64,000 nucleotides of DNA from Variovorax paradoxus (GTDB taxonomy: Bacteria; Pseudomonadota; Gammaproteobacteria; Burkholderiales; Burkholderiaceae_C): assembly GCF_030815975.1 (NCBI RefSeq), contig NZ_JAUSXL010000002.1, positions 1,798,001 through 1,862,000 of the forward strand, in the 5' to 3' direction. Below the pieces are notes generated by a model. The model ran no database searches. It was not told the origin of the DNA and saw nothing but the letters and a program-made list of their open reading frames with translations. Below are positions 10,461 through 29,769 of the stretch, one piece after another (positions within the stretch are counted from its first letter, which is position 1; every line of letters begins with the position of its first letter). The translations under genes were made by a program, and so were the position numbers.

Positions 10461-10708
10461 TCCGAGGTCTCCACGCGCATGCCTTCGGCGCAGACCGCCT
10501 GGCAGGCGAGCCTCTGCCGGCCGTCGATCAGCACGCGGCATTCCTGGCACACGCCCATGCCGCAGAACGGCGCGCGCGGCTGGCCCGTGACGGAGCTGCG
10601 CGCCACGCCCATGCCGCCGGCCACGCGCAATGCGGCGGCGACCGAGCTGCCCGTTTTCACGCGGACGGGTTGCCCGTCGATGTGCAGCAACAGCACAGGA
10701 GTGCTCAT
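10457..10708 (-). CDS. D-hydroxyproline dehydrogenase, small [2Fe-2S] subunit
   Basis: The 83-residue ferredoxin-like protein (HcnA type) has the cluster-binding pattern FCGMGVCQECRV with a distal cysteine in RLACQ. It starts MSTPVLLLHIDGQPVRVKTG. Small subunits of this kind pass electrons between the two flavin subunits of heteromeric D-amino acid dehydrogenases. Four-base overlaps with the genes on both sides make a three-subunit enzyme very likely. Confidence 0.87.
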   Translation of the reverse strand: MSTPVLLLHIDGQPVRVKTGSSVAAALRVAGGMGVARSSVTGQPRAPFCGMGVCQECRVLIDGRQRLACQAVCAEGMRVETSE

Positions 10709-11808
10709 GCCGTCTCCAGCAAGCCGCGCGGCGCATAGGGCGCCGCGTCGAATCCGGGTGCGGCGCCGGTCATCAGCGCCGCGAGCAGGTGCGCACTGCC
10801 CGGCGCTGTGGTCACGCCCAGGCCTTCGTGGCCGACCGCGAGCCAGAGCTTCTGGCGCCACGGGTGCTTGCCCAGCAGCGGCAGCCCGTCGGGCGTGGCG
10901 GCGCGCAGGCCGGTCCAGGAGCGTACCGCATTGAGGTCCGCGAGCCCCGGCAGGTAGCCGATCGCGCGCTGCAGCATGCGCGCGAGCATCGGCGCTTCGA
11001 CCGCCGGATCGGTGGTGTCGAACTGGCGCGAGGAGCCGATCAGCAGTTGGCCCGTGGGCCGCGGCTGCACGTTGAAAGCGACCGAATCGCCGTCGCTGTG
11101 GTGCGCGCTGGTCACGTAGCCGAGTTCGACCAGCTGGTGGTGCACAGTGCCCGGATAGCGGTCGGTGATCAGCAGGTGGCCCTTCTTCGGGCGGATCGGG
11201 AGTTCGGGGCAGAGCGTCGTGGCTTCGATGCCGTTGGCCAGCACGATCTGCGGGGCGCTGCGCCGGCTGCCGTCGGCGAGCCGCAGCGCGCCGTCGTGTT
11301 CGATCGCATCGACCTTCGCATGCTCGACGCGGACCGAAGCGCCGCCCTGCGCGAGCAGCCAGCGCGCCGCGTTCGGCGCATAGAGGATGCCGTCGCCGGG
11401 CACTTCGAGCGCGCCCGCGAGGCCCTTGCGCAGCGCGGGCTCGGCGCGTGCGAGCGAAGGCGCATCGAGCAGGCGGCTGTCGATGCCGTGTTCACGCAGC
11501 CGCTGCTGCTTGCGCTCGGCCTCGGCCATTTCTTCTTCGTTGGCGGCAATCCAGAGCGTGCCGCAGGCGCTGTACGCGCAGCCCTCGTCCATGTGCGGCG
11601 CGAGGACGCGCCATCGCGCGGTCGAATCGCGGCTCAGCGCGAGTTCGGCGGGGTTGTCGTCCATCACCACGAGGTGCCCCATGCCCGCGCCGGTGGCGCC
11701 GCCGATGCGCGCATCGAGCACCAGCACGCGGCGGCCGGCCTGCGCCAGCGCGTGCGCGCAGGCGGCCCCGACGATGCCGGCTCCTATGACGATGACATCC
11801 GCGTGCAC
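10705..11808 (-). CDS. D-hydroxyproline dehydrogenase, catalytic FAD subunit (DAO family)
   Basis: The 367-residue protein of the DadA/glycine-oxidase superfamily starts MHADVIVIGAGIVGAACAHA, the ADP-binding beta-alpha-beta fold of FAD enzymes. The C-terminal substrate-side domain has GLRAATPDGLPLLGKHP and AVGHEGLGVTTAPG, typical of the family. In the operon it follows the epimerase gene and precedes the two electron-transfer subunits. It should oxidise cis-4-hydroxy-D-proline to the pyrroline imine and pass electrons on to the respiratory chain. Confidence 0.88.
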   Translation of the reverse strand: MHADVIVIGAGIVGAACAHALAQAGRRVLVLDARIGGATGAGMGHLVVMDDNPAELALSRDSTARWRVLAPHMDEGCAYSACGTLWIAANEEEMAEAERKQQRLREHGIDSRLLDAPSLARAEPALRKGLAGALEVPGDGILYAPNAARWLLAQGGASVRVEHAKVDAIEHDGALRLADGSRRSAPQIVLANGIEATTLCPELPIRPKKGHLLITDRYPGTVHHQLVELGYVTSAHHSDGDSVAFNVQPRPTGQLLIGSSRQFDTTDPAVEAPMLARMLQRAIGYLPGLADLNAVRSWTGLRAATPDGLPLLGKHPWRQKLWLAVGHEGLGVTTAPGSAHLLAALMTGAAPGFDAAPYAPRGLLETA

Positions 11809-11827
11809 GGCCTACTGCACGTCGCGG

Positions 11828-11864
11828 AACACCGCGGAGCCCGCTTTGCCGGGCCGCCGGTGTT
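11828..11864. repeat. Long imperfect hairpin inside the hydroxyproline operon
   Basis: AACACCGCGG (11828-11837) faces CCGCCGGTGTT (11854-11864) with one bulge, and an inner stem CCCG/CGGG (11840-11843/11850-11853) encloses CTTTGC. It fills much of the 113-base gap between the epimerase and the dehydrogenase genes, the only long gap among otherwise tightly packed genes. The surrounding 11865-11921 is also non-coding. From memory, similar blocks recur between Variovorax genes. Confidence 0.5.
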
Positions 11865-11921
11865 GCCCTCGGCAGGGGGTTGGCGAAGCGACACGAGGTG
11901 CGCGAAGACTGGGGGCGAGCT

Positions 11922-12857
11922 TCATGTCCGGATGCCCCATCCGAAAGGATCGTTGTCGTCGATCAGCAGCGTGGCTTCGGCGCTGATGTGCGCGCGGCCG
12001 CGCAGCGTCGGAATGACCTGGCCGCCATCCAGCGCGTAGCTGGCCTCGAAGCGGCTGCCGATCACGCTGGCCTGCGTCCACACTTCGCCCGGCGCGAGCT
12101 TGCCGTCGGCCGCAAGGCAGGCGATCTTGGCGCTGGTGCCGGTGCCGCAGGGCGAGCGGTCGTAGGCGTTGCCGGGGCAGAGCACGAAGTTGCGGCTGTC
12201 GGCGCCGTCTTCATCCTCGGCGAAGAGCTCGATGTGGTCGATCTCCGCGCCGCCCGAGCCCGTGATGCCCTGCGCCGCCAGCGCGCGGCGCAATGCCGTG
12301 GTGTAGCTGGTCAGCGCGGCGAGGTTGTCGCTCGCCACGCGCTGGCCGTGTTCGCTGACCAGGAAGAACCAGTTGCCGCCCCAGGCCACGTCGCCGCGCA
12401 CCGTGCCATGGCCGGGCAGCGCCACCGCCACCTGGTGCAGATGCCGGTAGGCCGGCACATTGCGCACGCTGACCGAACCATCGGCATGCAGCGTGGTCGT
12501 GACCGTGCCCACGGGCGTTTCGATGCGGTGCTCGCCCACGCCGATGCGCCCCATGTGCGCGAGGCTCGCGACCAGGCCGATGGTTCCGTGGCCGCACATG
12601 CCGAGGTAGCCGGTGTTGTTGAAGAAGATCACGCCCGCGGCGGCATCGCTCGACACAGGCTCGCACAGCAGCGCGCCGACCACCACGTCGCTGCCGCGCG
12701 GCTCGAGCACGGTGGCCGCGCGCCATTTGTCGTGCCGCTCGGCCAGCAGCGCGCGGCGCTCGGCCATGGGGCCGCCGCCCAGATCGGGAAACCCGCCGAT
12801 GACCAGGCGCGTGGGCTCGCCGCCCGTGTGCGAATCGATGATCTGGATGCGCTGCAT
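11922..12857 (-). CDS. lhpA: 4-hydroxyproline 2-epimerase
   Basis: The 311-residue protein of the proline racemase family starts [20 protein letters not shown]. Both catalytic cysteines are present: Cys88 in GMCGHGTIG and Cys237 in CGTGTSAK. A Cys/Cys pair identifies a racemase/epimerase; dehydratases of the family have Thr at the second site. It interconverts trans-4-hydroxy-L-proline and cis-4-hydroxy-D-proline, the first step of bacterial hydroxyproline use. The downstream D-amino acid dehydrogenase subunits and the upstream DapA-family deaminase support this against plain proline racemase. The start codon is the ATG 14 bases after the stop of the binding-protein gene. Confidence 0.93.
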
Positions 12858-12871
12858 GGGGCGTCGTCCGT

Positions 12872-14017
12872 TCAGTAGCTGGCGATGGGCACCGGGGCCG
12901 CGTTCTTGAAGGTGAAGACGGTGATGGGCGCCTGCTTCATGTTGCCCTTGTCGTCGTAGGCATAGGTGGCGGCCACGCCCTTGTAGGTGTCCTTGTAGAG
13001 CTGTGCGCCCACCTTGTCGGGATCGATGGAGTTGGCCTTCTGCATCGACTCGCCGATGAACAGCACCTGGTCGTAGTACGAGGCAGCGTACGCATCCGCG
13101 TCGGCGTTGAAGCGCTTCTTGAACTTGGCCTTGAAGGCCGGGCCGCTCTGCGCCTTCTCGAGGATGGAGCCGCCCTGCGCGCAGAACACCAGGTCGTTGA
13201 CCGCGTCGCCGCCGAGCTTGCCGGTGGCCGGGCTGCAGACGGTGTCGCCGCCCAGCAGCTTGCCGGGCACCGCGAGCTGCTTCATCTGGCGCGCCATGGG
13301 TGCGGCCTGCGGCGCGTAGCCGCCGAAGAAGATCGCCTCGGGCGCCTTGGCCTTCATGTTGGTGAGGATGGCGGTGAAGTCCACGGCCTTGTCGGTCGTG
13401 AACTCCTGGCCGACGATCGTGAGGCCCTGCTTCTTCGCTTCCTTGGTGAACTCTTCGGCCAGGCCCTGGCCGAAGGCGGTGCGGTCGTCGATCACGCCGA
13501 CCTTCTTCACCTTCAGCTCCTTGGCCGCGTACACCGCCATGCTGGAGCCGATCTGGTTGTCGCTTGCGATGATGCGGTAGAGATTCTTGTAGCCGCCCTG
13601 CGTGACCTTCGGGTTGGTGCCCACGGTGGAGACCATGGTGCCGCCTTCGGCATAGATGCGCGACGCCGGAATCGCCACGCCCGAGCAGTACGGGCCCATG
13701 ACGTACTTGACGCCGTCGTCCACGAGCTTCTGCGCCACGCTCACGCCGGACTTGGCGTCGCACTGGTCGTCTTCGGACACCAGCTCGAACTTCAGCGTCT
13801 TGCCGCCGACCGCGATCTTCTTCGCGTTGAGCTCCTCGATGGCCAGGCGCACGCCGTTTTCATTGTCTTTGCCCGCGAAGGCATTGGGGCCCGAGAGCGG
13901 GCCGCTGTGGCCGATCTTGACGACCTGCTCCTGCTGCGCATGCGCCTGGCCTGCGATGGCCAGCGCCACGAGGCCGACGACGCCGAGAAGTGGAACCATG
14001 CTTGCTTTTGTCTTCAT
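12872..14017 (-). CDS. Branched-chain amino acid-type ABC transporter substrate-binding protein
   Basis: The 381-residue periplasmic protein has a signal peptide of about 27 residues ending AGQAHAQQ. A type I (LivJ/LivK-like) periplasmic-binding fold follows: [20 protein letters not shown], then [20 protein letters not shown] and the [13 protein letters not shown] region. It is the second gene of the hydroxyproline operon and has no permease or ATPase beside it. It must use components encoded elsewhere. Its place between the deaminase and epimerase genes makes hydroxyproline or a related imino acid the likely ligand. Confidence 0.88.
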
Positions 14018-14057
14018 GCTTCTTCCTAGGTTGGGAACAATGAAAAGAGCGCTGTTA

Positions 14058-14972
14058 TTACATAACCGACTGGTACTGCGCAGGCCGCGTGGCCAGCGCC
14101 TTCTTCACGATGGCCTCGATGGCCGCGCGCTCCGCACCGACCAGCGGCAGCCGCGGGCGGCGCATGTGCTCGCTGCCCACGCCCACCAGCACATCGATCA
14201 GCTTCAGGTTCTGCACCAGCTTGGTCGACACATCCAGGTGCAGCATCGGCGTCATCCACTGGTACAGCTTCAGCGCCTCGGCGAACTTGCCGGCCTTCAT
14301 CAGGTCATAGAGCGCCACCGTCTCGCGCGGGAACGCGCAGCCCACGCCGGCCAGCAGGCCGTCGCAGCCCAGCGCCAGGCCTTCGTAGGCCAGGTCGTCC
14401 ACCCCCAGGAACAGCTGGTAGCGATCGCCCACCGTGTTGCGCAGGTCGGTGATGCGGCGGATGTCGTCCGAGCTCTCCTTGATGGCAGCGATCCACTCGC
14501 AGTCCGCCAGCTCCAGCATGTGCTCGGGCTTCAGGTCGACGCGGTAGGCCACCGGATTGTTGTAGACCATGATCGGCTTCTGGGCGGCACTGGCGATGGT
14601 GCGCACATTGAGCATGGCTTCGCGCGCATCGGCCACGTAGATCACCGAAGGCATCACCATGAAGCCGGCCACGCCGAGCTTGTTGGCGCCGTCCACATAG
14701 CGCAGCGCCTCGCGCGTGCTCGTTTCCGACACATTGGCCAGCACCGGGATGCGGCCGTCGGCGGCTTCGAGCGCGATCTTCGCGACCTGCAACTTCTCTT
14801 CGAGCGTGAGCGTGCTGGCTTCGCCCAGCGAGCCGCAGGTCACGAGGCCGTGGATGCCGTTGCGGATCTGGAAGTCGATGTGGCGCGCGGTGCCTTCGGC
14901 ATCGATGCTCTCGTCGGCGTGGAATTTGGTGGTGATGGCGGGGAAGATGCCTTGCCAGCGGGGTTGGGTCAC
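14058..14972 (-). CDS. Dihydrodipicolinate synthase-family deaminase (pyrroline-4-hydroxy-2-carboxylate deaminase, likely)
   Basis: The 304-residue class I aldolase-fold protein has the Schiff-base Lys165 (AAIKESSD), Tyr137 (MVYNNP) and the GSLGEAS loop near 48-53. In hydroxyproline catabolism a DapA-family enzyme converts pyrroline-4-hydroxy-2-carboxylate to alpha-ketoglutarate semialdehyde with loss of ammonia, and the operon context fits that step. The start is GTG at 14972 with AGGAG about eight bases upstream. It is the first gene of the operon, with a near-palindromic operator 40-70 bases upstream. The following enzyme, semialdehyde dehydrogenase, is not in the window. Confidence 0.85.
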   Translation of the reverse strand: MTQPRWQGIFPAITTKFHADESIDAEGTARHIDFQIRNGIHGLVTCGSLGEASTLTLEEKLQVAKIALEAADGRIPVLANVSETSTREALRYVDGANKLGVAGFMVMPSVIYVADAREAMLNVRTIASAAQKPIMVYNNPVAYRVDLKPEHMLELADCEWIAAIKESSDDIRRITDLRNTVGDRYQLFLGVDDLAYEGLALGCDGLLAGVGCAFPRETVALYDLMKAGKFAEALKLYQWMTPMLHLDVSTKLVQNLKLIDVLVGVGSEHMRRPRLPLVGAERAAIEAIVKKALATRPAQYQSVM

Positions 14973-15428: not shown

Positions 15429-16427
15429 TCAGTCGATCTTCGCCCCCGAAGCCTTCACCACCGCCCCCATCGCATCCCAGTCCGCGCGCAGCAGCTTCTG
15501 GAACTCTTCGGCGCTCTGCGTGCGCGGCTCCACGCCCAGGCGCTTGAAGCGCTCCTGGATCACCGGCTCGGCCAGCACCTTGTTGGCCGCGGCGTTGAGG
15601 CGCTCGACCTCGGCCTTGGGCGTGCCGGCCGGCGCGAGCAGGCCGATCCACGAATCGAAGGCGTAGCCCGGCAGGCCGCTTTCGGCGACCGTCGGCAGCT
15701 TTGGCAGGAACGGGCTGCGCGCCTGGCCGGTGGAAGCGAGCAGCTTCAGGCGCGCATCGTCCTGGAAGCCCATCACGCCGATGCTCGACGAAATGACCGC
15801 CTGCACGCGGCCCGCCAGCACCTCGTTGACTGCCTCGCCCGTGGACTTGGTCGGGATGTGCGTCATCTGCAGCCCGGCCTTGGCGAGGAACGACGCCATC
15901 GCCAGGTGCGTGGCGCTGCCGTTGCCGGCCGAGGCGTAGTTGTACTTGCCCGGGTTGGCCCTGACCTCCTTGATGAAATCGGCCGTGTTCGACACGTTGA
16001 GCCCGCTCGCCACCGCCAGCACATAGCCCGCGTTGCCGATGTTGGCTACGCCCACGAAATCCTTCAGCGGGTCGTACGAGAGCTTGCTGTACAGGAAACC
16101 CGCGATGTTGTGGCTCGCGGCCGCGAGCACCAGCGTGTTGCCGTCCGCCGGCGCCTTGGCCACGGCAGCCGCGCCCACCGTGCCGCCCGCACCCGCGCGG
16201 TTCTCGACGATCGCGCTGGCATTGAGCGCCGCGCCCAGCTCGGCGTTGAAGGCGCGCGCCACCGTGTCCTGCACCGCGCCGGTGCCGAAGGGCACGACGA
16301 TGTGGATCACGCGCTGCTGCTGCGCGTGCGCGAACGTGAAGGCGCCGAGTGCCGCGGCGGCTGCAAGGACAGCCAGCGAACGCCGGGTGAACAGGGTGGA
16401 GGTCATCGGGTTGGCCGCTTTCATCAT
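15429..16427 (-). CDS. Tripartite tricarboxylate transporter substrate-binding protein (Bug family)
   Basis: The 332-residue protein has a signal peptide (RRSLAVLAAAAALGAFTFAH, then AQQ). The Bug mature start is IHIVVPFGTGAVQDTVARAF, with the conserved ENRAGAGGTVGAAAVAKAPA stretch close behind. It is the last gene of the long minus-strand operon, 19 bases after the M20 hydrolase gene, and has no TctA/TctB partner. The ATG at 16427 is taken as start; the in-frame ATG at 16406 would leave a more typical signal length, and neither has a strong ribosome site. The ligand is likely the acyl amino compound handled by the neighbouring hydrolases (inference). Confidence 0.88.
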   Translation of the reverse strand: MMKAANPMTSTLFTRRSLAVLAAAAALGAFTFAHAQQQRVIHIVVPFGTGAVQDTVARAFNAELGAALNASAIVENRAGAGGTVGAAAVAKAPADGNTLVLAAASHNIAGFLYSKLSYDPLKDFVGVANIGNAGYVLAVASGLNVSNTADFIKEVRANPGKYNYASAGNGSATHLAMASFLAKAGLQMTHIPTKSTGEAVNEVLAGRVQAVISSSIGVMGFQDDARLKLLASTGQARSPFLPKLPTVAESGLPGYAFDSWIGLLAPAGTPKAEVERLNAAANKVLAEPVIQERFKRLGVEPRTQSAEEFQKLLRADWDAMGAVVKASGAKID

Positions 16428-16446: not shown

Positions 16447-17652
16447 TCAGCCGCCCGAAGGCAGCCAGCGCTGCACCAGCTTCACGAAGTAGCTGGCGCC
16501 GATCGGAATGATCTCGTCGTTGAAATCGAACGAGGTGTTGTGAATGATGCAAGGGCCGGGCCCGTGGCCGCCCTGCCGGTGGTCGCCGTCGCCATTGCCG
16601 AGGAACGCATAGCAGCCGGGCCGCGCGAGCAGCATGTGCGCGAAGTCCTCGGCGCCCATCACGGCGGGGAAGTTGTCGGTGACCATGCCGTCGCCCACCA
16701 CCTCGCGCATCACGCTGGCGGCAAAGCGCGCCTCGGCCGGATGGTTGACCACCGGCGGCGAGGAGCGGTTGAAGAAAACCTCGGCCGTGCAGCCATGCGC
16801 CGCGGCCACGCCGGCCGCCACCTCGCGCAGCCGCGCCTCGATCTTGTCGATGGCTTCGATGGAGAAAGTGCGGATCGTGCCGCCGACCGTGGCCACGTCG
16901 GGAATCACATTGGGTGCATCCGAGCCCTGCAGCTGGGTGACCGCGAGCAGGGCGCGCTCGGTGCTCGGGATGGTGCGCGGCACGATGGTCTGAAGCTGCT
17001 GCGCGAGCGTGACCACCGCGGCCACCGGGTCGATGCCGGTGTGCGGCATCGAGGCGTGCGTGCCGCGCCCGTGCATGGTGATCTTGTAGGTGTTGCTCGA
17101 GGCCATCAGCGCGCCCTCGTTGAGCGCGAAGCGGCCCACGTCGCCGACCGGGAAGTTGTGCAGTGCAAAGACCGCGTCGCACGGGAAGCGGTCGAACAGG
17201 CCGTCCTGGATCATCTTCTTCGCGCCGGCCTTGCCCATCTCCTCGGCGGGCTGGAAGATGAAATGCACGGTGCCGTCGAAGTCATGGGGCCCCTGCTGCG
17301 ACAGGTGCCACGCGGCGGCCAGCAGCATGGTGGTGTGGCCGTCGTGGCCGCAGGCGTGCATGCGGCCCGCATGGGTGGACTTGTGGGCGAACTCGTTGGC
17401 CTCGTGCAGCGGCAGCGCGTCCATGTCGGCGCGCAGGCCGATGGTGCGCGTGCCGGTGCCCTTGCGCAGCACGCCGACCAGGCCGGTGCCGGCGATGCCG
17501 CGGTGCACCTCGATGCCCCATTCGGCGAGCAGGCCCGCGACCTTTTCGGAAGTGCGGTGCTCCTCGAAGCCGAGTTCGGGATGGGCGTGGATGTCGCGCC
17601 GGATATCGACGAAGCGCGAGGCGTTGTTGGCAAAGGAGTCGACGATGTTCAT
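16447..17652 (-). CDS. M20D-family amidohydrolase / N-acyl amino acid hydrolase
   Basis: The 401-residue protein is a metal-dependent M20D peptidase of the hippurate hydrolase/aminoacylase group. The metal-binding segment HACGHDGH (99-106) is complete, the catalytic pair is Glu137-Glu138 (FQPAEEMG), and later histidines lie in ALHNFPVGD and GAEDFAHM. Members release the acyl group from N-acyl amino acids, or hydrolyse indole-acetyl conjugates and similar amides, in the cytoplasm. In this operon it would complement the two HDAC-fold deacetylases. A 90-base gap separates it from the upstream aminotransferase gene, with no obvious signals. Confidence 0.88.
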   Translation of the reverse strand: MNIVDSFANNASRFVDIRRDIHAHPELGFEEHRTSEKVAGLLAEWGIEVHRGIAGTGLVGVLRKGTGTRTIGLRADMDALPLHEANEFAHKSTHAGRMHACGHDGHTTMLLAAAWHLSQQGPHDFDGTVHFIFQPAEEMGKAGAKKMIQDGLFDRFPCDAVFALHNFPVGDVGRFALNEGALMASSNTYKITMHGRGTHASMPHTGIDPVAAVVTLAQQLQTIVPRTIPSTERALLAVTQLQGSDAPNVIPDVATVGGTIRTFSIEAIDKIEARLREVAAGVAAAHGCTAEVFFNRSSPPVVNHPAEARFAASVMREVVGDGMVTDNFPAVMGAEDFAHMLLARPGCYAFLGNGDGDHRQGGHGPGPCIIHNTSFDFNDEIIPIGASYFVKLVQRWLPSGG

Positions 17653-17742: not shown

Positions 17743-19026
17743 TCAGAGGCCGGCCAGCACCTGGTCGAGCGTCTCGACCAGCAGGTCGGCATTGGCTTCG
17801 GAAAACACCAGCGGCGGGCGGATCTTGAGCGTGTTGCCGTGTTCGCCGGTGGCGCTCAGCAGCACCTGCCGCTCGCGCAGGCCGTTGACGATGCGCGCGG
17901 TTTCTGCGGTGGCCGGCGTGCGGGCGCGGCGGTCCGTGACGAGCTCCACGCCCACGAACAGGCCCGCGCCGCGCACGTCGCCGATCAGCGCGTGGCGCTC
18001 GGCGAGCTTCGCGATGCCGGCGCGCAGATGGCGGCCGACGCGCTGCGCATTGGCCATCAGGTCTTCGCGCTCGATCACGTCGAGCACCGCCATGCCGGCG
18101 GCCATCGAGACCGGGTTGCCGCCGAAGGTGTTGAAGTAGCGGCACTCGCGGCCGAAGGCGGCCAGCACCTCGGGGCGCACCGCGAGGCCGGCCAGCGGAT
18201 GGCCGGCGCCGAGCGGCTTGCCCATGGTGACGATGTCTGGCACCACGCCGTGCCGCTGGAAACCCCAGAAGGCATCGCCGGTGCGGCCCAGGCCCGGCTG
18301 TACTTCGTCGGCGATGAAGAGTCCGCCGGCCTCGCGCACCGCGTCCACCGCCTCCGCCATGAAGCCGGGCGGATCGGTGAAGATGCCGTCGCTCGAGAAC
18401 ACGGTGTCGACCATCAGCGCGGCCGGGCGGAGGCCCTGCGCCTTCAGGTCGGCGATGGCCTCGCGCACGCCCTGCGCGAACGCGCGGCCCATGTCGCCGG
18501 GCGCGATGCGGTAGCTGTCGGGCGCGGGCACGGTGCGCACCGCATCGCCGAGCTGCACGAACTTGCCGAGCGAGGGCGAGGCCTCGGCGATCGACGCGGT
18601 GACGCCGTGGTACGCGAAGCGCGTGACGATCAGTCCCTCGGCCTTGGTGTGCGCGCGTGCGATGCGCATCGCGAGGTCGTTGGCCTCGCTGCCGGTGCAG
18701 GTGAACATCGCATGCGCGAGTTCGGCCGGCAGGGTGGCGAGCAGCCGCTCGGCGTAGTCGAGCACGCCCTCGTGCAGGTAGCGCGTGTGGGTGTTGAGCA
18801 CGCCGGCCTGGCGCGCGATGGCCTCGACCACGTGCGGATGGCAATGGCCGACCGAGGCGACGTTGTTGTAGGCGTCGAGATGGGGCCGGCCCTCGGCGTC
18901 GTACAGCCACACGCCTTCGCCGCGCACCGGATGCAGCGGCGTGTCGTAGAACAGGCGATAGGCCGGTCCGAGCACGCGCGCGCGGCGCTCGACGAGGGCC
19001 TGGGTTGCGGAAGCGAGGGAAGTCAT
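17743..19026 (-). CDS. AGXT2L-type class III PLP enzyme (phospho-lyase or aminotransferase)
   Basis: The 427-residue fold-type I PLP protein has its Schiff-base Lys270 in PDIVTMGKPLGAGHP. Many segments match, from memory, the human ethanolamine-phosphate/5-phosphohydroxylysine phospho-lyases (AGXT2L1/2) rather than ordinary omega-aminotransferases: YNNVASVGHCHPHVVEA, LNTHTRYLHEG, YFNTFGGNPVS, RVLIGD-like GDVRGAGLFVG and VLLSATGEHGNTLKIRPP. The gene immediately upstream encodes a hydroxylysine-kinase-like phosphotransferase. A kinase/phospho-lyase pair acting on 5-hydroxylysine, giving 2-aminoadipate semialdehyde, is therefore plausible. A conventional transaminase on another amine remains possible. 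Confidence 0.82.
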   Translation of the reverse strand: MTSLASATQALVERRARVLGPAYRLFYDTPLHPVRGEGVWLYDAEGRPHLDAYNNVASVGHCHPHVVEAIARQAGVLNTHTRYLHEGVLDYAERLLATLPAELAHAMFTCTGSEANDLAMRIARAHTKAEGLIVTRFAYHGVTASIAEASPSLGKFVQLGDAVRTVPAPDSYRIAPGDMGRAFAQGVREAIADLKAQGLRPAALMVDTVFSSDGIFTDPPGFMAEAVDAVREAGGLFIADEVQPGLGRTGDAFWGFQRHGVVPDIVTMGKPLGAGHPLAGLAVRPEVLAAFGRECRYFNTFGGNPVSMAAGMAVLDVIEREDLMANAQRVGRHLRAGIAKLAERHALIGDVRGAGLFVGVELVTDRRARTPATAETARIVNGLRERQVLLSATGEHGNTLKIRPPLVFSEANADLLVETLDQVLAGL

Positions 19027-19036
19027 GGGCGATCTC

Positions 19037-20092
19037 TCAGAGGTTCAGCGCGCGGCGAAAGGCTGCTGTCGCGGCGGCGCTGCCGACGCGCTCGCAGGCC
19101 TGCAACCGCGCCCACGAGAGCGGGTTGTTGCGCAGCAGGTAGGGCGCGTTCTCGGGATAGCGCGCGGCGCGCCAGCCGCTGATGGCCACCACCATCACGA
19201 GCCGCGCCACGATCAGGTCGAACAGCACGCCGACCTCGGCCACCGACAACGGCCGCACCGCGTGGTAGGCGGCGACCAGCGGCACGATGGCCGCGAGCGG
19301 GTCGCTGTCCGTGCCGGCCTGGTAGGCGGCGGCCACGGCCAGGTCGTTGATGCAGGGCGCGCGCACCATGTCGCCGAAGTCGAGGATCGCGGCGATGCGG
19401 TCGGTGTCGGCCGGGTCGACCAGCAGGTTGTAGATGTTGAAGTCGTTGTGGATCGGCTGCGCGGGCAGCGTGCGCAGCACCTGCTTGGCATCGCGCTCGA
19501 AGCGGTCGAGCGCGGCGGCCGCGAGTGCCCGGCGCTCCGGCTCCGCAATGTGTGCGAGCAGGCTGCGCACGCTGTCGGCGCGCTGCAGGTCCCAGGGCAG
19601 CGACAGCTCGCCGGCCGGATGCTCGAAGCCGGCGAGCGCGAGGTCGAGCCGGGCCAGCATGCGTGCGAGGTTCTGCTGCTGCAGCGGCGTGCGCGGCGCC
19701 TCGGGCAGCGGCAGGCCGGGCAAATAGGTGAAGAGGCGCACCACGCGCGGCGGGCCGTCGCCGGGGTCGCACACGAAAGAGGCGGCACCGTCCCGCGTCG
19801 GCACGATGCGCTGCACCGGCAGGCCGGGGTCGGTGGCTGCGAGGTGCAGCAGGGCCTGGGTCTGGAAGTCGGCGACCAGCGCGGTCTCGGCCGGGTGCGA
19901 GATCTTCAGCATGAAGCGTGCGCCATCGGTGGTGCGCTCGAGCCGGTAGTTGCGGTCGCGCTCGCCGGTCAGCGGCTTCATCTCGCCTTCGATGCCGTAG
20001 CGCTCGCGCGCCATCTCGCGCACCCAGGCGTCGTCGAGCGCGGGCGAGGCTTCGCTGAGCACCTGCGCGTCGGCGAACTCTACATTCGTCAT
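19037..20092 (-). CDS. Hydroxylysine kinase-like phosphotransferase (APH fold)
   Basis: The 351-residue protein of the aminoglycoside phosphotransferase/choline-kinase fold has the catalytic loop HNDFNIYN and the metal motif ILDFGD. VVRLFTYLPGLPLPEAP, ILDFGDM and WRAARYPENAPYLL closely parallel the human 5-hydroxylysine kinase (HYKK/AGPHD1) as I remember it. This supports GTP/ATP-dependent phosphorylation of a hydroxyl on an amino acid. The start ATG overlaps the stop of the HDAC-fold gene by four bases, and the phospho-lyase-type gene follows after 10 bases. Homoserine kinase-like activity is the main alternative. Confidence 0.78.
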   Translation of the reverse strand: MTNVEFADAQVLSEASPALDDAWVREMARERYGIEGEMKPLTGERDRNYRLERTTDGARFMLKISHPAETALVADFQTQALLHLAATDPGLPVQRIVPTRDGAASFVCDPGDGPPRVVRLFTYLPGLPLPEAPRTPLQQQNLARMLARLDLALAGFEHPAGELSLPWDLQRADSVRSLLAHIAEPERRALAAAALDRFERDAKQVLRTLPAQPIHNDFNIYNLLVDPADTDRIAAILDFGDMVRAPCINDLAVAAAYQAGTDSDPLAAIVPLVAAYHAVRPLSVAEVGVLFDLIVARLVMVVAISGWRAARYPENAPYLLRNNPLSWARLQACERVGSAAATAAFRRALNL

Positions 20093-21117
20093 GCGGCGCT
20101 CTCGAAACCGCGCAGCGCGCTCGCGATGTTCGGGCCGAGGTCGTCGGAGAGGTAGCCGCCCTCCTGCACCAGCACCGTGGGCAGCCCCAGGCGCGCGATC
20201 TCGGCCAGCAGCACGGCGAAGCCGGCGGTCTGGATCTTCATGCCCTTGTAGGGATCGCGCTCGTGCGCGTCGAGGCCCAGCGCCACCACGAGCACGCCGG
20301 GCGCATAGGCGCGGATGCTGTCGCAGGCATCGCGCAGCGCGGGCAGGTAGCCATCGATGTCGGTGCCCAGCGCGAGCGGCTTGTTGATGTTGTAACCCAG
20401 GCCTTCGCCTTCGCCGCGCTCGTGCGCATGGCCGATGAAGAAGGGCGTGAAGTTGCGCGGATCGCCGTGCAGCGAGATGGTCAGCACGTCGGCGCGGCGG
20501 TAGAAGACGCCCTGCGTGCCGTTGCCGTGGTGCACGTCGATGTCGAGGATGGCCACGCGCTCGTGCACGCCGCGCAGGTGCTGCGCGGCAATGGCCACGT
20601 TGTTGAGGTAGCAGAAGCCGTTGGCGCGGTCGGCATAGGCGTGGTGGCCGGGCGGGCGGCACAGCGCATAGGCAGCACGCTCGCCATCGAGCACGAGCTG
20701 CGCCGCATGCGTCGCCATGTGGGCCGAGGCGATGGCAGCCTCCCAGGTGCGCGCGCCGATGGAGCAGGCGTTATCGCCCATGTGGAAGCCGGCCTGGCCG
20801 ACCACGCTGTCGGGATAGGTGCAGGGCTGGCCCGGAAACGGATGGATGTTGGGCATCACCTCTTCGGACGGATCGTCCAGCAGTTGCCAGCGCGCGTAGG
20901 CCGTCTCCAGGAATCGCAGGTACTCGGGCGTGTGGATGGCGGCGCGCGGGCCGGCGCCGAAGTCGCGCGGGCCGACGATCTCGTGGCCTTCCCGCTGCAC
21001 CGCCTCGAGCAGGCGGAACGCGCGCTCGGGCTGCTCGTTGCTGCGCTTGAGCTTGCCGCGCACCATGAAGAGCTGCGGGTCGTGGTCCTTGTGCGTGTCG
21101 CTGTAGACGACTTTCAT
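20089..21117 (-). CDS. Acetylpolyamine amidohydrolase / HDAC-family deacetylase (copy 1)
   Basis: The 342-residue zinc deacetylase of the histone deacetylase superfamily starts MKVVYSDTHKDHDPQLFMVR. The active site is intact: tandem histidines in RPPGHHA (158-159), zinc ligands in LDIDVHHGNG (Asp194, His196) and GLDAHERDP, and the catalytic tyrosine in QEGGYLSDD. Bacterial members of this type remove acetyl or other acyl groups from polyamines and related amines. The gene lies 18 bases after the GntR gene and overlaps the kinase gene. A second paralogue is encoded at 22831-23889. Confidence 0.9.
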   Translation of the reverse strand: MKVVYSDTHKDHDPQLFMVRGKLKRSNEQPERAFRLLEAVQREGHEIVGPRDFGAGPRAAIHTPEYLRFLETAYARWQLLDDPSEEVMPNIHPFPGQPCTYPDSVVGQAGFHMGDNACSIGARTWEAAIASAHMATHAAQLVLDGERAAYALCRPPGHHAYADRANGFCYLNNVAIAAQHLRGVHERVAILDIDVHHGNGTQGVFYRRADVLTISLHGDPRNFTPFFIGHAHERGEGEGLGYNINKPLALGTDIDGYLPALRDACDSIRAYAPGVLVVALGLDAHERDPYKGMKIQTAGFAVLLAEIARLGLPTVLVQEGGYLSDDLGPNIASALRGFESAA

Positions 21118-21135: not shown

Positions 21136-21867
21136 TCAGGCGTGGGCGGGAAGGGGCGCGGCGGCGCCGTGCTGCTTCACGAACAGTGCGCGCACGTGCT
21201 GCCAGGCGTCTTCCAGGTGCACGCGCATCGCGGCCTTGGCGGCCTCGGGATCGCGGCGCACCAGGGCGTCGACGATGGGGCGGTGGGTCTCGGCCATGGC
21301 GGTGGGGTCGTGGTAGACCGCGTCGATCAGCGCGATGATCATCTGCATTTCGGTCTGCGTGTTCATGAAGATGCGGTGCAGGTGCGCATTGCCCGACAGC
21401 TCGCAGATCAGCGTGTGCAGCGCCAGGTCGGTGGCAATGCGGTGGTGCTGCGGCTGCGTGCTCGCCTCGCGCACCATGGCCTCGACCAGCGCCTGCACGC
21501 GCGCAATGCCCGCGTCGTCGGCCTTGCGGCAGGCCAGCTCGATGGAGGTGAGTTCGAGGCTCAGGCGCACCTCGAACAGATCGTCGATCTCCTGCACGCT
21601 GATGGTCCGCACCGCGAAGCCGTGGCGCGGCTTGGCCACCAGCACGCCCTGGCGCTCGAGCCGCCGCGCCGCCTCGCGCACCGGCGCGCGGCTCACGCCC
21701 ATGCGGCGCGCGATGTCGGCCTCGACGATGCGGCTGCCGGGCGCCAGGCGGCCTTCGACGATGGCGCGCGTCAGCTGGGCCTCGACCAGCCCGACGAGGT
21801 CGGTCGACTCGACGGACTCGAAGAGGGCCGTGTCGGCAGAAGGAGGAGTTGTCAGGGAAGTTGCCAT
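21136..21867 (-). CDS. GntR-family (FCD domain) regulator of the long catabolic operon
   Basis: The 243-residue regulator has an N-terminal winged helix (about 25-95; RIVEADIARRMGVSRAPVRE) and an FCD ligand domain containing ATDLALHTLICELSGNAHLH, the usual metal-coordinating histidine region. It sits in the middle of the operon, 40 bases after the DMT exporter gene and 18 before the first HDAC-fold gene, and is co-directional with them. It is probably the operon's own repressor. The repeated GACAGT sites at 32280-32316 upstream of the first gene are its candidate targets. Confidence 0.88.
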   Translation of the reverse strand: MATSLTTPPSADTALFESVESTDLVGLVEAQLTRAIVEGRLAPGSRIVEADIARRMGVSRAPVREAARRLERQGVLVAKPRHGFAVRTISVQEIDDLFEVRLSLELTSIELACRKADDAGIARVQALVEAMVREASTQPQHHRIATDLALHTLICELSGNAHLHRIFMNTQTEMQMIIALIDAVYHDPTAMAETHRPIVDALVRRDPEAAKAAMRVHLEDAWQHVRALFVKQHGAAAPLPAHA

Positions 21868-21907: not shown

Positions 21908-22834
21908 TCACCGGATGGCGTCTGGCGCGGCCGATACGGTCTTCAGGCCCCGCCCCGCGCGGGCCAGGTAGATGCCGGCCGCCATGATCAGCGCGATGCC
22001 GGCCATCGCGATCGCGTCGGGCGGCCGGCGGAACCAGAAGGTGCTGAAGGCCACGGCCAGCAGCAGCTGGAAGTAGTTGAGCGGCGCCAGCGTGGAGGCC
22101 TCCACGCGCTCGAAGGCGGCCAGCAGCAGCCATTGCGCCGCCGCGCTGCAGGCGCCGCCCGCGAGCAGCAGCGCCACATCGGCCCAGGGCGGCTGGTGGG
22201 CGGGCAGGAAGAAAGGCGCCGGAAGCAGCGTGACGACGAAGCAGGCCAGCGCGGTCCAGGCGTATTGCACCGGCCCCGCGACCAGGCCCGCGAGCCGGCG
22301 CGTGAGCAGCTGGAAAATCGCGTAGCAGACGGCGGCCACGGCCATCAGCACGGTGCCGAGCAGCGGTAGGTCGGCCCCCGGCCGCACGATCAGCAGCATG
22401 CCGCCGAAGCCGACCGTCACCGCCACCCAGCGGCTGCGCCGCACCTGCTCGCCGAGCAGCCACGGCGACAGCGTCACCATCAGGAGCGGCGCGGTGAAGT
22501 AGATGGCCGTGGCCTCGGCCAGCGGCATCCAGATGAGCGCCGTCATGAAGCAGGTCGCCACCGTCGCGAGCATCAGCCCGCGCAGCAGCAGCAAGGGCTT
22601 GTGCCGCGTGTGCCAGATGCGCAGGTCGCCATGGCGCAGCAGCATCGCGAAGGCAATGCCGCTCACCGCGACATAGCGCATCACGTTGACGAAGGGCGCC
22701 GGGTAGAACTGCAGCATGTGCTTGCAGAACGCGTCGTAGGAAGCAAAGGCCACCAGCGCGCAGAAGAACAGCGCCACGCCGGCGCTCCTGGAGCCCGCCG
22801 GGCGCAATGCGAGGGCCGTGGCGGCGCTGCTCAT
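21908..22834 (-). CDS. DMT-superfamily (EamA-type) membrane transporter
   Basis: The 308-residue protein has about ten hydrophobic helices in two EamA repeats, with segments such as GVALFFCALVAFASYDAFCK and LAEATAIYFTAPLLMVTLSP. The EamA family exports amino acids and other small metabolites. The start ATG overlaps the stop of the upstream deacetylase gene by four bases. An efflux or overflow-valve role for an amine or amino acid intermediate fits the operon, but the substrate cannot be read from sequence. Confidence 0.85.
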   Translation of the reverse strand: MSSAATALALRPAGSRSAGVALFFCALVAFASYDAFCKHMLQFYPAPFVNVMRYVAVSGIAFAMLLRHGDLRIWHTRHKPLLLLRGLMLATVATCFMTALIWMPLAEATAIYFTAPLLMVTLSPWLLGEQVRRSRWVAVTVGFGGMLLIVRPGADLPLLGTVLMAVAAVCYAIFQLLTRRLAGLVAGPVQYAWTALACFVVTLLPAPFFLPAHQPPWADVALLLAGGACSAAAQWLLLAAFERVEASTLAPLNYFQLLLAVAFSTFWFRRPPDAIAMAGIALIMAAGIYLARAGRGLKTVSAAPDAIR

Positions 22835-23889
22835 CGCGCGGCCTGGAAGCCCTGCAGGAAGTTGTCGAGCGCGGGGCCGATGGCCTCGACCATGTAGCCG
22901 CCTTCCTGCACGATCACCGTGGGCAGCTTGAGCGCGCCGACGCGCTCGCCGATGTGACGGTAGGCGTCGAGGTCGGGCTTCAGCACGCTGATGGGGTCGT
23001 CCTTGTAGCTGTCGAAGCCGAGCGCGAGCACCAGCGCCTTGGGCGCGAATTCACGCAATGCGGCGGTACCTTCGTCCACCGCCTGCAGGAACACCGCGGT
23101 GCCCGCGCCGTGCGCGAGCGGCAGGTTCAGGTTGAAGCCTTCGCCCGCGCCGACTCCGCGCTCATGCGCATAGCCGGTGTAGAACGGGTAGTAGCCCGAG
23201 GGATCGGCATGCGTCGACACGGTCAGCACGTCGCCGCGCGCATAGAAGATGTTCTGCGTGCCGTCGCCGTGGTGCGCATCGACGTCGAACACCGCCACGC
23301 GGCCGTGCCGCTCCCACAGCCGCTCTGCCGCGATGGCGCTGTTGTTGATGTAGCAGAAACCGCCCGCGCGGTCGCGGTGCGCGTGGTGGCCCGAGGGGCG
23401 GCACAGCGCGTAGGCCGCGTCGCCGCTTTCCAGCACCGCATCGGCGGCCGCCACTGCCGTGTGCGCCGAGCGCAATATCGAGCGCCAGGTGTGCGGGCCG
23501 AGCGGGCACGAGAGGTCGCTGATGTAGTAGCCCGTGCGTGCCACCAGCGAAGGTGAAGGACACGGCGCGCGCGCCACGCCCGGCGTGCCGTTGTAGTAGG
23601 GCGAAAGATTCGGCAGCACCTCGATGCCGGGCTCCACGCCGGGCACGTCGAGCTCGCGCCACAGTGCCCAGGCGGTTTCCAGGTAGTCGAGGTAGTCGGC
23701 GCTGTGCACGGCTTCGAGCGGCGCGCGGCCATAGTCGCGCGGCTCGGCCAGCGCAATGCCGCGCAGGGCCAGCGCATCGCGCAGCGCATGCGCGCGGCTC
23801 GGCAGGTCGGTCGGCTTGCAGATGCGGCCCAGCCGCATGAACTGCTGCGGATCGTGCAGCAGTTGCTCGTCGGTGAAGAAGGCCTTCAC
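22831..23889 (-). CDS. Acetylpolyamine amidohydrolase / HDAC-family deacetylase (copy 2)
   Basis: The 352-residue paralogue of the protein encoded at 20089-21117 has a complete site: RPSGHHAHRDRAGGFCYINN, FDVDAHHGDGTQ, GFDSYKDDP and QEGGYMVEA. It starts with GTG at 23889, fused to the stop of the aminotransferase gene as GTGA. It differs from copy 1 in the N-terminal specificity region (MKAFFTDEQLLHDPQQFMRL) and in loops such as ISDLSCPLGPHTW. A different acyl-amine substrate is therefore likely. Two such enzymes in one operon with two PLP enzymes point to acylated diamine or amino acid catabolism. Confidence 0.9.
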   Translation of the reverse strand: MKAFFTDEQLLHDPQQFMRLGRICKPTDLPSRAHALRDALALRGIALAEPRDYGRAPLEAVHSADYLDYLETAWALWRELDVPGVEPGIEVLPNLSPYYNGTPGVARAPCPSPSLVARTGYYISDLSCPLGPHTWRSILRSAHTAVAAADAVLESGDAAYALCRPSGHHAHRDRAGGFCYINNSAIAAERLWERHGRVAVFDVDAHHGDGTQNIFYARGDVLTVSTHADPSGYYPFYTGYAHERGVGAGEGFNLNLPLAHGAGTAVFLQAVDEGTAALREFAPKALVLALGFDSYKDDPISVLKPDLDAYRHIGERVGALKLPTVIVQEGGYMVEAIGPALDNFLQGFQAAR

Positions 23890-25256
23890 GCGAAGCTTTC
23901 CTCGAACACCACCATGGCGCGGCCGAAGCGCGCGAACATGTCTTCGATCTGTTCGGCCGTGATGATGAGCGGCGGGCAGAAGGCGATGGAATCGCCCATC
24001 GCGCGCACGATGAGCCCTTGCGCCAGCGCGAGCTCGGCCAGCCGGGCGCCGGCCTTCTGCGCGGGATCGAAGGGCGTGCGCTTCGCGGGGTCGGCATACA
24101 GCTCGATGGCGCCGATGAGCCCCACGCCGCGCACCTCGCCGACGTACTTGCGCGCGGCGTGGCTCTGCAACCCCTGCTGGAATTGCGGCGCCAGCGACTG
24201 CACGTGCGCGAGGATGTTCTCGTCCTCGTACACCTTGAGCGTCTCGAGCGCGATGGCGCAGGCCACCGGATGGCCCGAGTAGGTGAAGCCGTGGCCGAAG
24301 GTGCCGATCTTGCCGCTGTTGGCGGCCACGGCCGCATGCACCTTCTCGTTCACCATCACGGCCGAGATCGGCACGTAGCCCGAGGACAGCGCTTTGGCCG
24401 CGGTCAGGATGTCGGGCTTCAGGCCGAAGGTGGTCGAGCCGAACATCTGGCCGGTGCGGCCGAAGCCGCAGATCACTTCGTCGGCGATCAGCAGCACCTC
24501 GTACTTCGCGAGCACCTTCTGGACCTTGTCGAAGTAGGTGGCCGGCGGCACCAGCACGCCGCCCGCGCCCATCACGGGTTCGGCGATGAAGGCGCCGACC
24601 GTCTCGGGGCCTTCTTCGAGGATGCGCTGCTCGAGCGCAGCGGCCAGCCGCGTCGCGAAGTCTTCCTCGCTCTCGCCGGCTTCGGCATAGCGGAAATGGT
24701 GCGGACAGTCGACGTGCAGGATGCGGTCGATCGGCAGGTCGAAGTCGCGGTGGTTCGGCGCGAGGCCGCTCAGGCTCGCGGCCGCGACGGTCACGCCGTG
24801 GTAGGCGTTGCGGCGCGCGATGATCTTCTTCTTTGCAGGCTTGCCGATGGCGTTGTGGTAGTACCAGACCAGCTTGACCGCCGAGTCGTTGGCCTCCGAA
24901 CCCGAGTTGGCGAAGAACACCTTGGACATCGGCACCGGTGCCAGCGCGAGCAGCTTCTCGGCCAGCGCGATGGCGGCCGGGTTCGAGCGGCCGTTGAACG
25001 TGTGGTAGTACGGCAGCCCGTGCAGCGCATCGCTGCCGGCCTTGGCCAGGCGTGCGTTGCTGAAGCCCAGCGAGGCGCACCACAGGCCCGACATCGCTTC
25101 GAGATAGCGGCGGCCCTGGTCATCCTCCACGAAGATGCCGTCGCCGCGCTGGATCACGAGCGGGCCGACCTGCGGATGGGTCGCAAGATTGGTGAAGGGA
25201 TGCAGATGCGCGGCGATGTCGTGGGCGGCGTTCTCCGCAGGCGTGCTGGCGTTCAT
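23886..25256 (-). CDS. Class III omega-aminotransferase, SpuC-like (diamine/polyamine:pyruvate)
   Basis: The 456-residue fold-type I aminotransferase has the PLP Lys288 in ILTAAKALSSGYVPISAV, the cofactor phosphate loop SGSEANDSAVK and the AYHGVTVAAASLSG segment. Its N-terminus (HPFTNLATHPQVGPLVIQRG) matches the SpuC/putrescine-pyruvate and beta-alanine-pyruvate aminotransferase group. It would transaminate a primary amine released by the deacetylase encoded immediately downstream, with which it shares a GTGA junction. The start codon is chosen at MNASTPAENAAHD; the frame continues upstream only as antisense-like sequence. Confidence 0.88.
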   Translation of the reverse strand: MNASTPAENAAHDIAAHLHPFTNLATHPQVGPLVIQRGDGIFVEDDQGRRYLEAMSGLWCASLGFSNARLAKAGSDALHGLPYYHTFNGRSNPAAIALAEKLLALAPVPMSKVFFANSGSEANDSAVKLVWYYHNAIGKPAKKKIIARRNAYHGVTVAAASLSGLAPNHRDFDLPIDRILHVDCPHHFRYAEAGESEEDFATRLAAALEQRILEEGPETVGAFIAEPVMGAGGVLVPPATYFDKVQKVLAKYEVLLIADEVICGFGRTGQMFGSTTFGLKPDILTAAKALSSGYVPISAVMVNEKVHAAVAANSGKIGTFGHGFTYSGHPVACAIALETLKVYEDENILAHVQSLAPQFQQGLQSHAARKYVGEVRGVGLIGAIELYADPAKRTPFDPAQKAGARLAELALAQGLIVRAMGDSIAFCPPLIITAEQIEDMFARFGRAMVVFEESFA

Positions 25257-25282: not shown

Positions 25283-26255
25283 TCAATAGCCGCGCGCCAG
25301 GTCGACCTGGTTCGCGGGGCGCCGGCCCTGCCGCACCGACGCAAGGTTGTCGAGCGTCTGGCGCGCGATCACGAGGCTGTCGGTGCGCGTGGCGATGTGC
25401 GGCGTGACGAGGATGCGCGGGTCGCCCCAGAACGGATGCTCCGGCGGCAGCGGCTCCTGCGAGAAGGCATCGAGCGTGGCCGCCGAGAGCTGGCCCGCAT
25501 CGAGCGCCGGCTGCAGGTCGGCCTCGACCAGGTGGTCGCCGCGGCCGACGTTGATCAGGTGCGCGCCGCGCGGCAGCTTGGCGAACAGCGCGGCATCGAG
25601 AAAGCCGTGCGTCTCGGCGGTCAGCGGCAGCAGGCACACCAGCGTGTCGCAGCCCGAAAGAAATTGGTCGAGCTGCGCCGCGCCGTGGAATCCTTCGACG
25701 CCGGCCGGCAGCGCCTCTTTCGCACTGCGGCTCCAGCCGCGCACCTGGTAGCCGATGGCGGCCAACGCCTCGGCACAGGCCATGCCCAAGGTGCCCAGCC
25801 CGGCAATGCCCACGCGGTGGTGGCGCGGCGACTCGATCGGCTGCTCCTCCCATCGGCGAGCCGCGGAACTTGCGACGTAGGCCCGCATGCCGCGGTGCTG
25901 CTGCACCACGGCCCAGCAGACATAGGCCTTCATGCCGGCCGCCATGCCGGTGTCGACGATGCGGCACAGCGGCAGCTGGCGCGGCAACCGCCGCATCGGC
26001 CGTGATGTGCTCGATGCCCGCAGCCAGCGACTGCACGAGCCGAAGCCTCGGCATCCGGGCGAGCAGGCCATGCGGCGGAAACCAGCAGACGGCCGCATCG
26101 ATCTGGTCGAGCGCGCCGAGGTTTTCACCCAGGCGCAGGTCGATGCCCGGATGGGCCTCGCGGAAGGCCGCGGCGAGGTATTCCATGTCCAGCACCGCGC
26201 TCAGGATCGCGACGCAGGGCGTACCGCCCTTGCCCTTGTCGTCCGGCGGCGCCAT
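25283..26255 (-). pseudogene. D-2-hydroxyacid dehydrogenase (glyoxylate/hydroxypyruvate reductase A type) with a one-base frameshift
   Basis: The N-terminal ~88 residues ([20 protein letters not shown] to AAGIEHITADAA) read in one frame from 26255. The rest reads in the next frame: LPRQLPLCRIVDTGMAAG, the NAD loop VGIAGLGTLGMACAEALAAI, INVGRGDHLVE, and the active-site histidine in ILVTPHIATRTD, ending at 25283. One extra base in the CCGCCG run at 25988-25993 accounts for the shift, since 973 bases equals 324 codons plus one. Repaired, the product would be about 323 residues, normal for GhrA. It is either a sequencing error or a recent inactivating mutation. It overlaps the ABC ATPase stop by one base. 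Confidence 0.85.
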
Positions 26256-29729: not shown

Positions 29730-29769
29730 CGGCGGCTCCTGCGGAATTGCATGTGCTGCGGGCTGGCCG

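Follow-up and report, generated by a model that had tools for sequence, protein, structure and literature searches.

What does a bacterium gain from two neighboring genes that resemble the animal machinery for breaking down 5-hydroxylysine? In animals, 5-hydroxylysine is degraded by an APH-fold kinase, HYKK, which phosphorylates it using GTP, and a class III pyridoxal 5'-phosphate (PLP) phospho-lyase, PHYKPL/AGXT2L2; these animal enzymes were reportedly identified in a 2012 study, which is cited in PMC8154272. Homologues of the pair are widespread among Proteobacteria that live in soil or with plants, and one such pair lies within a 64,000-nucleotide stretch of Variovorax paradoxus (contig NZ_JAUSXL010000002.1, positions 1,798,001 to 1,862,000; hereafter the window, numbered from its first letter), part of a genome of 6.09 Mb. 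Here, on the minus strand like all of the genes discussed below, a gene for an APH-fold small-molecule kinase (amino-alcohol/hydroxylysine-kinase-like; 19037..20092, 351 aa) is followed by a gene for a class III PLP enzyme of the phospho-lyase subfamily (17743..19026, 427 aa). The closest named relatives of the locus are species of Variovorax. An initial annotation had read these genes as an unfused hydroxylysine kinase/phospho-lyase pair, joined through the chemistry of collagen to a nearby hydroxyproline operon; both open reading frames are present where it placed them, and all six of the segments that it quoted occur in the translations. The comparisons described below indicate that the pair is probably a module that deaminates, in two steps, a primary amine with a hydroxyl in the vicinal (beta) position; this amine would be freed from an amide and end as an aldehyde.

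The class of the PLP enzyme is given by several comparisons. It matches PF00202 with 245.1 bits (cut-off 30.5), and the PLP-lysine position is K270. Among solved proteins it scores 388.8 bits with human ETNPPL in an alignment that spans 14-425, 383.9 bits with the phospholyase of PDB 5g4i, whose source organism we take to be Arthrobacter, and 220.6 bits with the next protein, a racemase. A tree of 42 rows was built from 31 of 74 predicted PLP genes, the window enzyme, a fused protein from locus L133, two PDB chains, and seven class III aminotransferases from the V. paradoxus genome itself; in this tree the 35 lyase-type rows split from the seven aminotransferases with support of 100/100. Sixteen subfamily positions, which are retained in the alignment with human ETNPPL, are each present in 33 or 34 of the 35 lyase-type rows and in none of the aminotransferases. 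(The lyase-shared residues of the window enzyme that the seven aminotransferases lack are N54, N55, R82, W254, G269, P271, F298, N299, and K401.) By sequence, then, the enzyme is a predicted member of the AGXT2L/ETNPPL phospho-lyase subfamily, as had been proposed. Within that subfamily, human ETNPPL is sister to a fused bacterial type (100/96), and the branch of the window enzyme is separate (95/87); the Arthrobacter protein, a phospho-lyase of the same class III fold, nevertheless falls outside the clade of the window enzyme (95/87 and 90/98). A class III lyase that acts on a beta-hydroxy amine is also represented by PbfA, the (R)-1-hydroxy-2-aminoethylphosphonate ammonia-lyase, which uses the unphosphorylated hydroxyl of a phosphonate (PMC8154272), unlike the reaction proposed here; the window enzyme scores 197.8 bits against the PbfA model, for which the cut-off is 525.

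The kinase also has the class first assigned to it. It matches PF01636 (APH) with 93 bits (cut-off 23.2), and its catalytic motifs, K63, H215-N216-D217, N222, and D238-F-G-D241, are invariant in an alignment of 31 sequences. The closest solved sequence, both by single sequence (4.7e-8) and by profile (2.8e-12), is PDB 6ef6, titled as a microcompartment-associated aminopropanol kinase, at an identity of just 20-23%; the homoserine kinase 2ppq is second by profile. The predicted structure (pLDDT 93.2) finds APH-type kinases as its structural matches, and such a modeled fold tells the family, not the substrate: Foldseek places 2ppq first and 6ef6 second, the structure Z scores are 28.8 for an N-acetylhexosamine kinase, 28.3 for homoserine kinase, and 24.6 for 6ef6, and antibiotic kinases are likewise near in fold. 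The proposed likeness to HYKK itself rests on the HYKK-type segments named in the initial annotation and on names such as 'hydroxylysine kinase', which automatic annotation has given to homologues in some sources; for the branch of the window kinase, that name is not backed by the present comparison.

These rankings speak for a rival explanation, in which the PLP enzyme would act as a common transaminase next to a homoserine kinase, or another sugar or antibiotic kinase, that adjoins it by chance. Although Foldseek ranks a homoserine kinase first, this function was rejected for the window kinase, which reaches 37.9 bits against the homoserine kinase model TIGR00938, far under the cut-off of 255.9, while the genome has its own ThrB elsewhere (272.7 bits). 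The fully supported split of the PLP tree from the aminotransferases argues against the other half of this explanation. Furthermore, the pairing is no chance neighborhood, because among 80 related loci from named genomes a PLP homologue is found in 79 (in the other, L081, the contig stops shortly after the kinase), and the two genes are predicted side by side in 72, with a median gap of 10 bp. The gap in the window is also 10 bp. Two unrelated enzymes brought together by accident are thus a very improbable account of the locus.

The description of the pair as 'unfused' is likewise correct, because the two proteins match separate parts of one fused protein model, PRK06148 (1015 positions), which is the best NCBIfam match for both: the kinase aligns to positions 5-340 with 289.8 bits and the PLP enzyme to 583-1009 with 523.6 bits, neither alone reaching the cut-off of 1128. 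The fused PRK06148/PRK06149 proteins have both catalytic domains in common with the window pair, but differ from it in being a single chain with an M23 peptidase domain between kinase and PLP parts. PRK06148 matches at E <= 1e-100 were found in 8 of 185 genomes of the class, with one above the cut-off. At L133 (genome G133), from this class, a single protein of this kind carries APH, peptidase M23, and Aminotran_3 domains, and it is the nearest to human ETNPPL in the PLP tree. A second apparent fusion, a 690-aa HDAC-kinase reading frame at L062 (Polaromonas sp. P2-4, 8945-11017), was rejected: its translation leaves that of its relatives at the HDAC end and at the kinase end, and it is read as frameshifts in the record, with no evidence of fusion.

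The enzyme families are known, and they stand here in a conserved arrangement with an amide hydrolase; no description of an amide-hydrolase/kinase/phospho-lyase arrangement was present among the matches listed in the open-licence literature. In the window, the gene directly upstream of the kinase encodes HDAC 1 (20089..21117), an HDAC-family, acetylpolyamine-amidohydrolase-like enzyme, and overlaps the kinase gene by 4 bp. An HDAC-family gene is the usual partner of the pair, being present in 58 of the 80 loci. In the 73 loci where the gene directly upstream of the kinase is readable, it encodes an HDAC in 40, D2HDH in 6, an M20-type enzyme in 6 (PRK06837-type, window-M20-like, and PRK09290-type, two each), a HAD protein in 3, a GntR regulator in 3, and another protein in 7, and it lies on the opposite strand in 8; an amide hydrolase on the same strand therefore directly precedes the kinase in 46 of 73. 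At L080 and L089 an M20 enzyme occupies the usual place of the HDAC, and in the kinase tree both loci fall within a group of 37 rows (100/96), 34 of which have an HDAC nearby; L119 and L125 have a different M20 enzyme, whose gene shares 4 bp with that of the kinase. On this tree (61 of 74 predicted kinases, of at least 330 aa, together with the window kinase, L133, and three second-type kinases), the HDAC label requires five changes, three of them forced.

Of 41 relatives, 9 have a close HDAC orthologue (at least 75% identity), without exception adjacent to the kinase; in the other 32, no HDAC match of 75% was found at E <= 1e-90. No such orthologue was found in G001, G013, and G022, which hold only other copies of the pair, with kinase identities of 39%, 44%, and 42%, respectively, plus a broken copy at 54-57% in G022. 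(In G022, at C44:21701-22318, one kinase copy is split in two, and no more than a fragment of the PLP gene could be located; this copy is probably decayed.) Other recurrent neighbors, counted from clusters of predicted genes and as lower bounds with flanks that stop at 10 kb, are an ATP-binding protein (51 loci), DppC-like (50) and DppB-like (47) permeases, a dehydrogenase (45), a GntR regulator (45), an aminotransferase (31), and an aldolase (14). The hosts of the cluster include Variovorax, Acidovorax, Pseudorhodoferax, Comamonas, Curvibacter, Polaromonas, Cupriavidus, Ralstonia, Achromobacter, and Halotalea, and it is rearranged in Bradyrhizobium, Bosea, Microvirga, and Pararhodobacter. A second HDAC type together with a thiamine-diphosphate enzyme occurs in two Bosea, three Microvirga, and the Pararhodobacter loci, some with an aldehyde dehydrogenase as well. 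At L116, L117, L121, and L124 the pair lies near transporter genes and a gene for the 5-oxoprolinase subunit PxpA, another amide-opening enzyme; in L116, the one of these four loci that was scanned, PxpA scores 257.2 bits (cut-off 226).

Taken together, the families of these genes and their conserved order, close spacing, and co-occurrence suggest how the operon may work. An amide-bound amine would enter through the peptide/nickel-type ATP-binding cassette (ABC) transporter (26255..31338), which consists of an ATP-binding protein (26255-27892), a DppC-like permease (27910-28761), a DppB-like permease (28758-29729), and a substrate-binding protein (29770-31338); the last was named by profile scan and the other parts from their sequence. 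One or both of the HDAC-family enzymes would then cleave the amide and expose the amine, after which the APH-fold kinase would phosphorylate the hydroxyl next to it, and the PLP enzyme would eliminate phosphate and ammonia to leave an aldehyde for further oxidation. In such a scheme amide cleavage would precede phosphorylation, and the role of the operon would be catabolic. Among known systems the pair is close to animal HYKK, PHYKPL, and ETNPPL, with which it shares the APH-fold kinase and the class III phospho-lyase; it differs in the separate branch of its PLP enzyme and in its place in one operon with amidohydrolases of the HDAC family and a transporter of the peptide type. The conserved HDAC-kinase-lyase order would point to a concrete substrate class and would give roles to the HDAC-family enzymes of these bacteria; if the scheme is true, it shows phospho-lyase chemistry built into amide catabolism. 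The candidate substrates fall into three groups of nearly equal likelihood: acylated hydroxydiamines or hydroxy-amino acids (2-hydroxyputrescine, 4-amino-3-hydroxybutyrate), 5-hydroxylysine or an acylated form of it, and 1-amino-2-propanol or ethanolamine. Pantothenate, ectoine, octopamine, and siderophore substrates were considered and set aside.

The HDAC-family enzymes, of which the genome encodes five, two of them in this operon, bring polyamines to mind. HDAC 1 scores 287-309 bits with bacterial acetylpolyamine amidohydrolases (PDB 9gkz, 3men, and 6phr), and like them it retains PPGHH, the metal positions, and EGGY. For the Pseudomonas aeruginosa family members PA1409 and PA0321, the substrates are acetylpolyamines, and mutants of this family grow more poorly on acetylcadaverine or acetylputrescine (PMC4784309). 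These similarities, together with the class III aminotransferase of the PRK06105 subfamily encoded within the operon (23886..25256; 717.4 bits, cut-off 517), are consistent with the tentative idea that the operon degrades N-acylated 2-hydroxyputrescine or hydroxyagmatine, the HDAC deacylating it and the kinase and lyase converting its H2N-CH2-CH(OH)- end to an aldehyde. The product might possibly be 4-aminobutanal, or succinate semialdehyde once an aminotransferase had acted on the other end. In some relatives, moreover, the pair adjoins a transporter of the PotA type (L091: 367.3 bits, cut-off 355.6). 2-Hydroxyputrescine is an attractive candidate: it is one of the main polyamines in Lampropedia cohaerens, a member of the Comamonadaceae (PMC5015223), and wheat is described as containing its coumaroyl and feruloyl amides (PMC9257175).

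Several features of the locus weigh against this idea. HDAC 1 lacks the known polyamine-binding positions: Glu106 and Glu117 of the M. ramosa enzyme are missing from it (in the alignment as read), and it has PYK in place of the PIS motif, which is characterized as the polyamine gatekeeper of the bacterial polyamine deacetylases of cluster 4 (PMC11532494). PIS is present in none of 49 HDAC 1 homologues (one of which has a gap there), with PYK or PYQ in 38. The second HDAC-family amidohydrolase of the operon, HDAC 2 (22831..23889), is also of the acetylpolyamine type and, unlike HDAC 1, has the PIS motif. Host range is a weak guide: 42 of the 58 HDAC loci are in Betaproteobacteria, but 13 are in Alphaproteobacteria (with 1 in Gammaproteobacteria and 2 unassigned), and the 22 loci without an HDAC are divided among Betaproteobacteria (11), Alphaproteobacteria (10), and Gammaproteobacteria (1). 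The aldolase and the hydroxyacid dehydrogenase of the operon would also be left unexplained. Among the matches listed in the open-licence literature, no paper on 2-hydroxyputrescine catabolism was found. The operon might, at a guess, supply the breakdown pathway that is still lacking for hydroxyagmatine or 2-hydroxyputrescine in acylated form or, more generally, a portable module coupled to different amide hydrolases; bacteria would then join a kinase and a phospho-lyase to varied amide hydrolases to use hidden amino alcohols. Hydroxyputrescine occurs as a polyamine in Betaproteobacteria and in a defense amide made by cereals.

Older work and studies of aminoacetone microcompartments describe a bacterial route of kinase and phospho-lyase from aminopropanol or ethanolamine, and the kinase of 6ef6 presumably has a phospho-lyase as its partner there as well. 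The window pair could belong to such a pathway for 1-amino-2-propanol or ethanolamine, fed by N-acyl forms, and 1-amino-2-propanol stays a candidate because 6ef6 is the nearest solved sequence to the kinase; the solved relatives of the PLP enzyme, too, are named for phosphoethanolamine or as phospholyase. The distance of the kinase from 6ef6 and the position of the Arthrobacter phospholyase outside the clade of the window enzyme nonetheless make this assignment doubtful. No microcompartment genes were seen in the operon. Ethanolamine itself is the less likely substrate because an ethanolamine ammonia-lyase is encoded elsewhere in the genome (EutB, 722 bits).

This leaves the proposal with which the locus was introduced, that the pair works like animal HYKK and AGXT2L2, converting 5-hydroxy-L-lysine into 2-aminoadipate semialdehyde, and serves the use of collagen together with the hydroxyproline operon. 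The enzyme subfamilies fit, as do the names given to some kinase homologues, and 5-hydroxylysine is feasible because a piperideine-6-carboxylate dehydrogenase is encoded elsewhere in the genome (807 bits, cut-off 730). This dehydrogenase, however, gives no support for a hydroxylysine link because it is near universal in the genus (23 of 25 genomes at E <= 1e-180, 22 above the cut-off). A free amino acid as substrate would leave the HDACs and the peptide transporter unexplained, and human ETNPPL falls beside the fused bacterial type, away from the branch of the window enzyme. No paper on bacterial 5-hydroxylysine kinase/phospho-lyase operons was found among the matches listed in the open-licence literature. 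On balance, this role for the window pair seems unlikely, if worth keeping in mind. A better candidate for a hydroxylysine pathway is the pair at L037/L141 (G001:C16:81000-110500), of a distant second type, which lies near an aldehyde dehydrogenase that resembles piperideine-6-carboxylate dehydrogenase (610.6 bits, cut-off 730); its further neighbors, judged from sequence starts, look to be an ABC transporter for amino acids, HAD proteins, and an FAD oxidoreductase.

The link to hydroxyproline and collagen can be examined on its own. The hydroxyproline-type operon (9165..14972), a neighbor outside the proposed module, comprises a DHDPS-family gene (14058-14972), a LivK-like gene (12872-14017), a gene for 4-hydroxyproline epimerase (11922-12857; PRK13970, 552 bits, cut-off 442), and genes for two FAD oxidoreductases (10705-11808 and 9165-10460). 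It starts 2.8 kb downstream of the pair, as the initial annotation had said (about 3 kb). The association did not hold in other genomes. The epimerase is found behind the pair in 6 of the 80 loci, all Variovorax (as 16 of these loci span less than 20 kb, a few epimerases may have escaped notice). Across the genus (25 genomes), the epimerase is present in 7 of the 13 with the pair versus 4 of the 12 without it (Fisher p 0.43). When the HDAC-type pair alone is considered in the same genus, the numbers are 6/10 versus 5/15 (p 0.24); in this count G010, whose truncated pair lies on a broken 3.4-kb contig with no HDAC match, was placed with the HDAC type by sequence identity. Three genomes (G003, G006, and G012) have the whole cluster and no epimerase match anywhere, and in two relatives with the full cluster the epimerase is elsewhere in the genome. 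The idea of a collagen unit was consequently rejected, and a hydroxyproline/collagen link of the kinase/PLP pair is not supported.

Between the pair and the hydroxyproline operon lie genes for an M20 amidohydrolase (16447..17652; TIGR01891, 354.8 bits, cut-off 153.75) and a TctC/Bug substrate-binding protein (15429..16427), both of which are found behind the pair in some Variovorax only. Consensus matches on the minus strand point to a possible terminator (16467-16448) and a possible promoter (15035-15006); together, these putative sites would part the pair from the hydroxyproline operon.

The order of transcription across the whole region is class II aldolase, ABC transporter, GhrA-like dehydrogenase, class III aminotransferase, HDAC 2, EamA, GntR, HDAC 1, kinase, PLP enzyme, M20, TctC, and then, after about 457 bp, the hydroxyproline-type operon. 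The EamA-family transporter is encoded at 21908..22834 and the GntR/FCD-family regulator at 21136..21867. The class II aldolase/adducin-family protein (31427..32218) matches PRK07044 with 348.9 bits (cut-off 207). At L035 (G022:C50), a pair of the second type lies downstream of a Dpp-type transporter, a tartrate dehydrogenase (520.2 bits, cut-off 470.4), and a succinate-semialdehyde dehydrogenase (656.8 bits, cut-off 646.35), and a HAD-like gene adjoins the kinase. The D-2-hydroxyacid dehydrogenase of the window (25283..26231) is termed GhrA-like, an assignment for which the intact relative in L030 scores 202 bits, below the cut-off of 403. Its frame is broken between 26001 and 25990: residues 6-82 of the L053 protein correspond to 26231-26001 and residues 86-320 to 25990-25286, a split that reflects either a frameshift mutation or a sequencing error.

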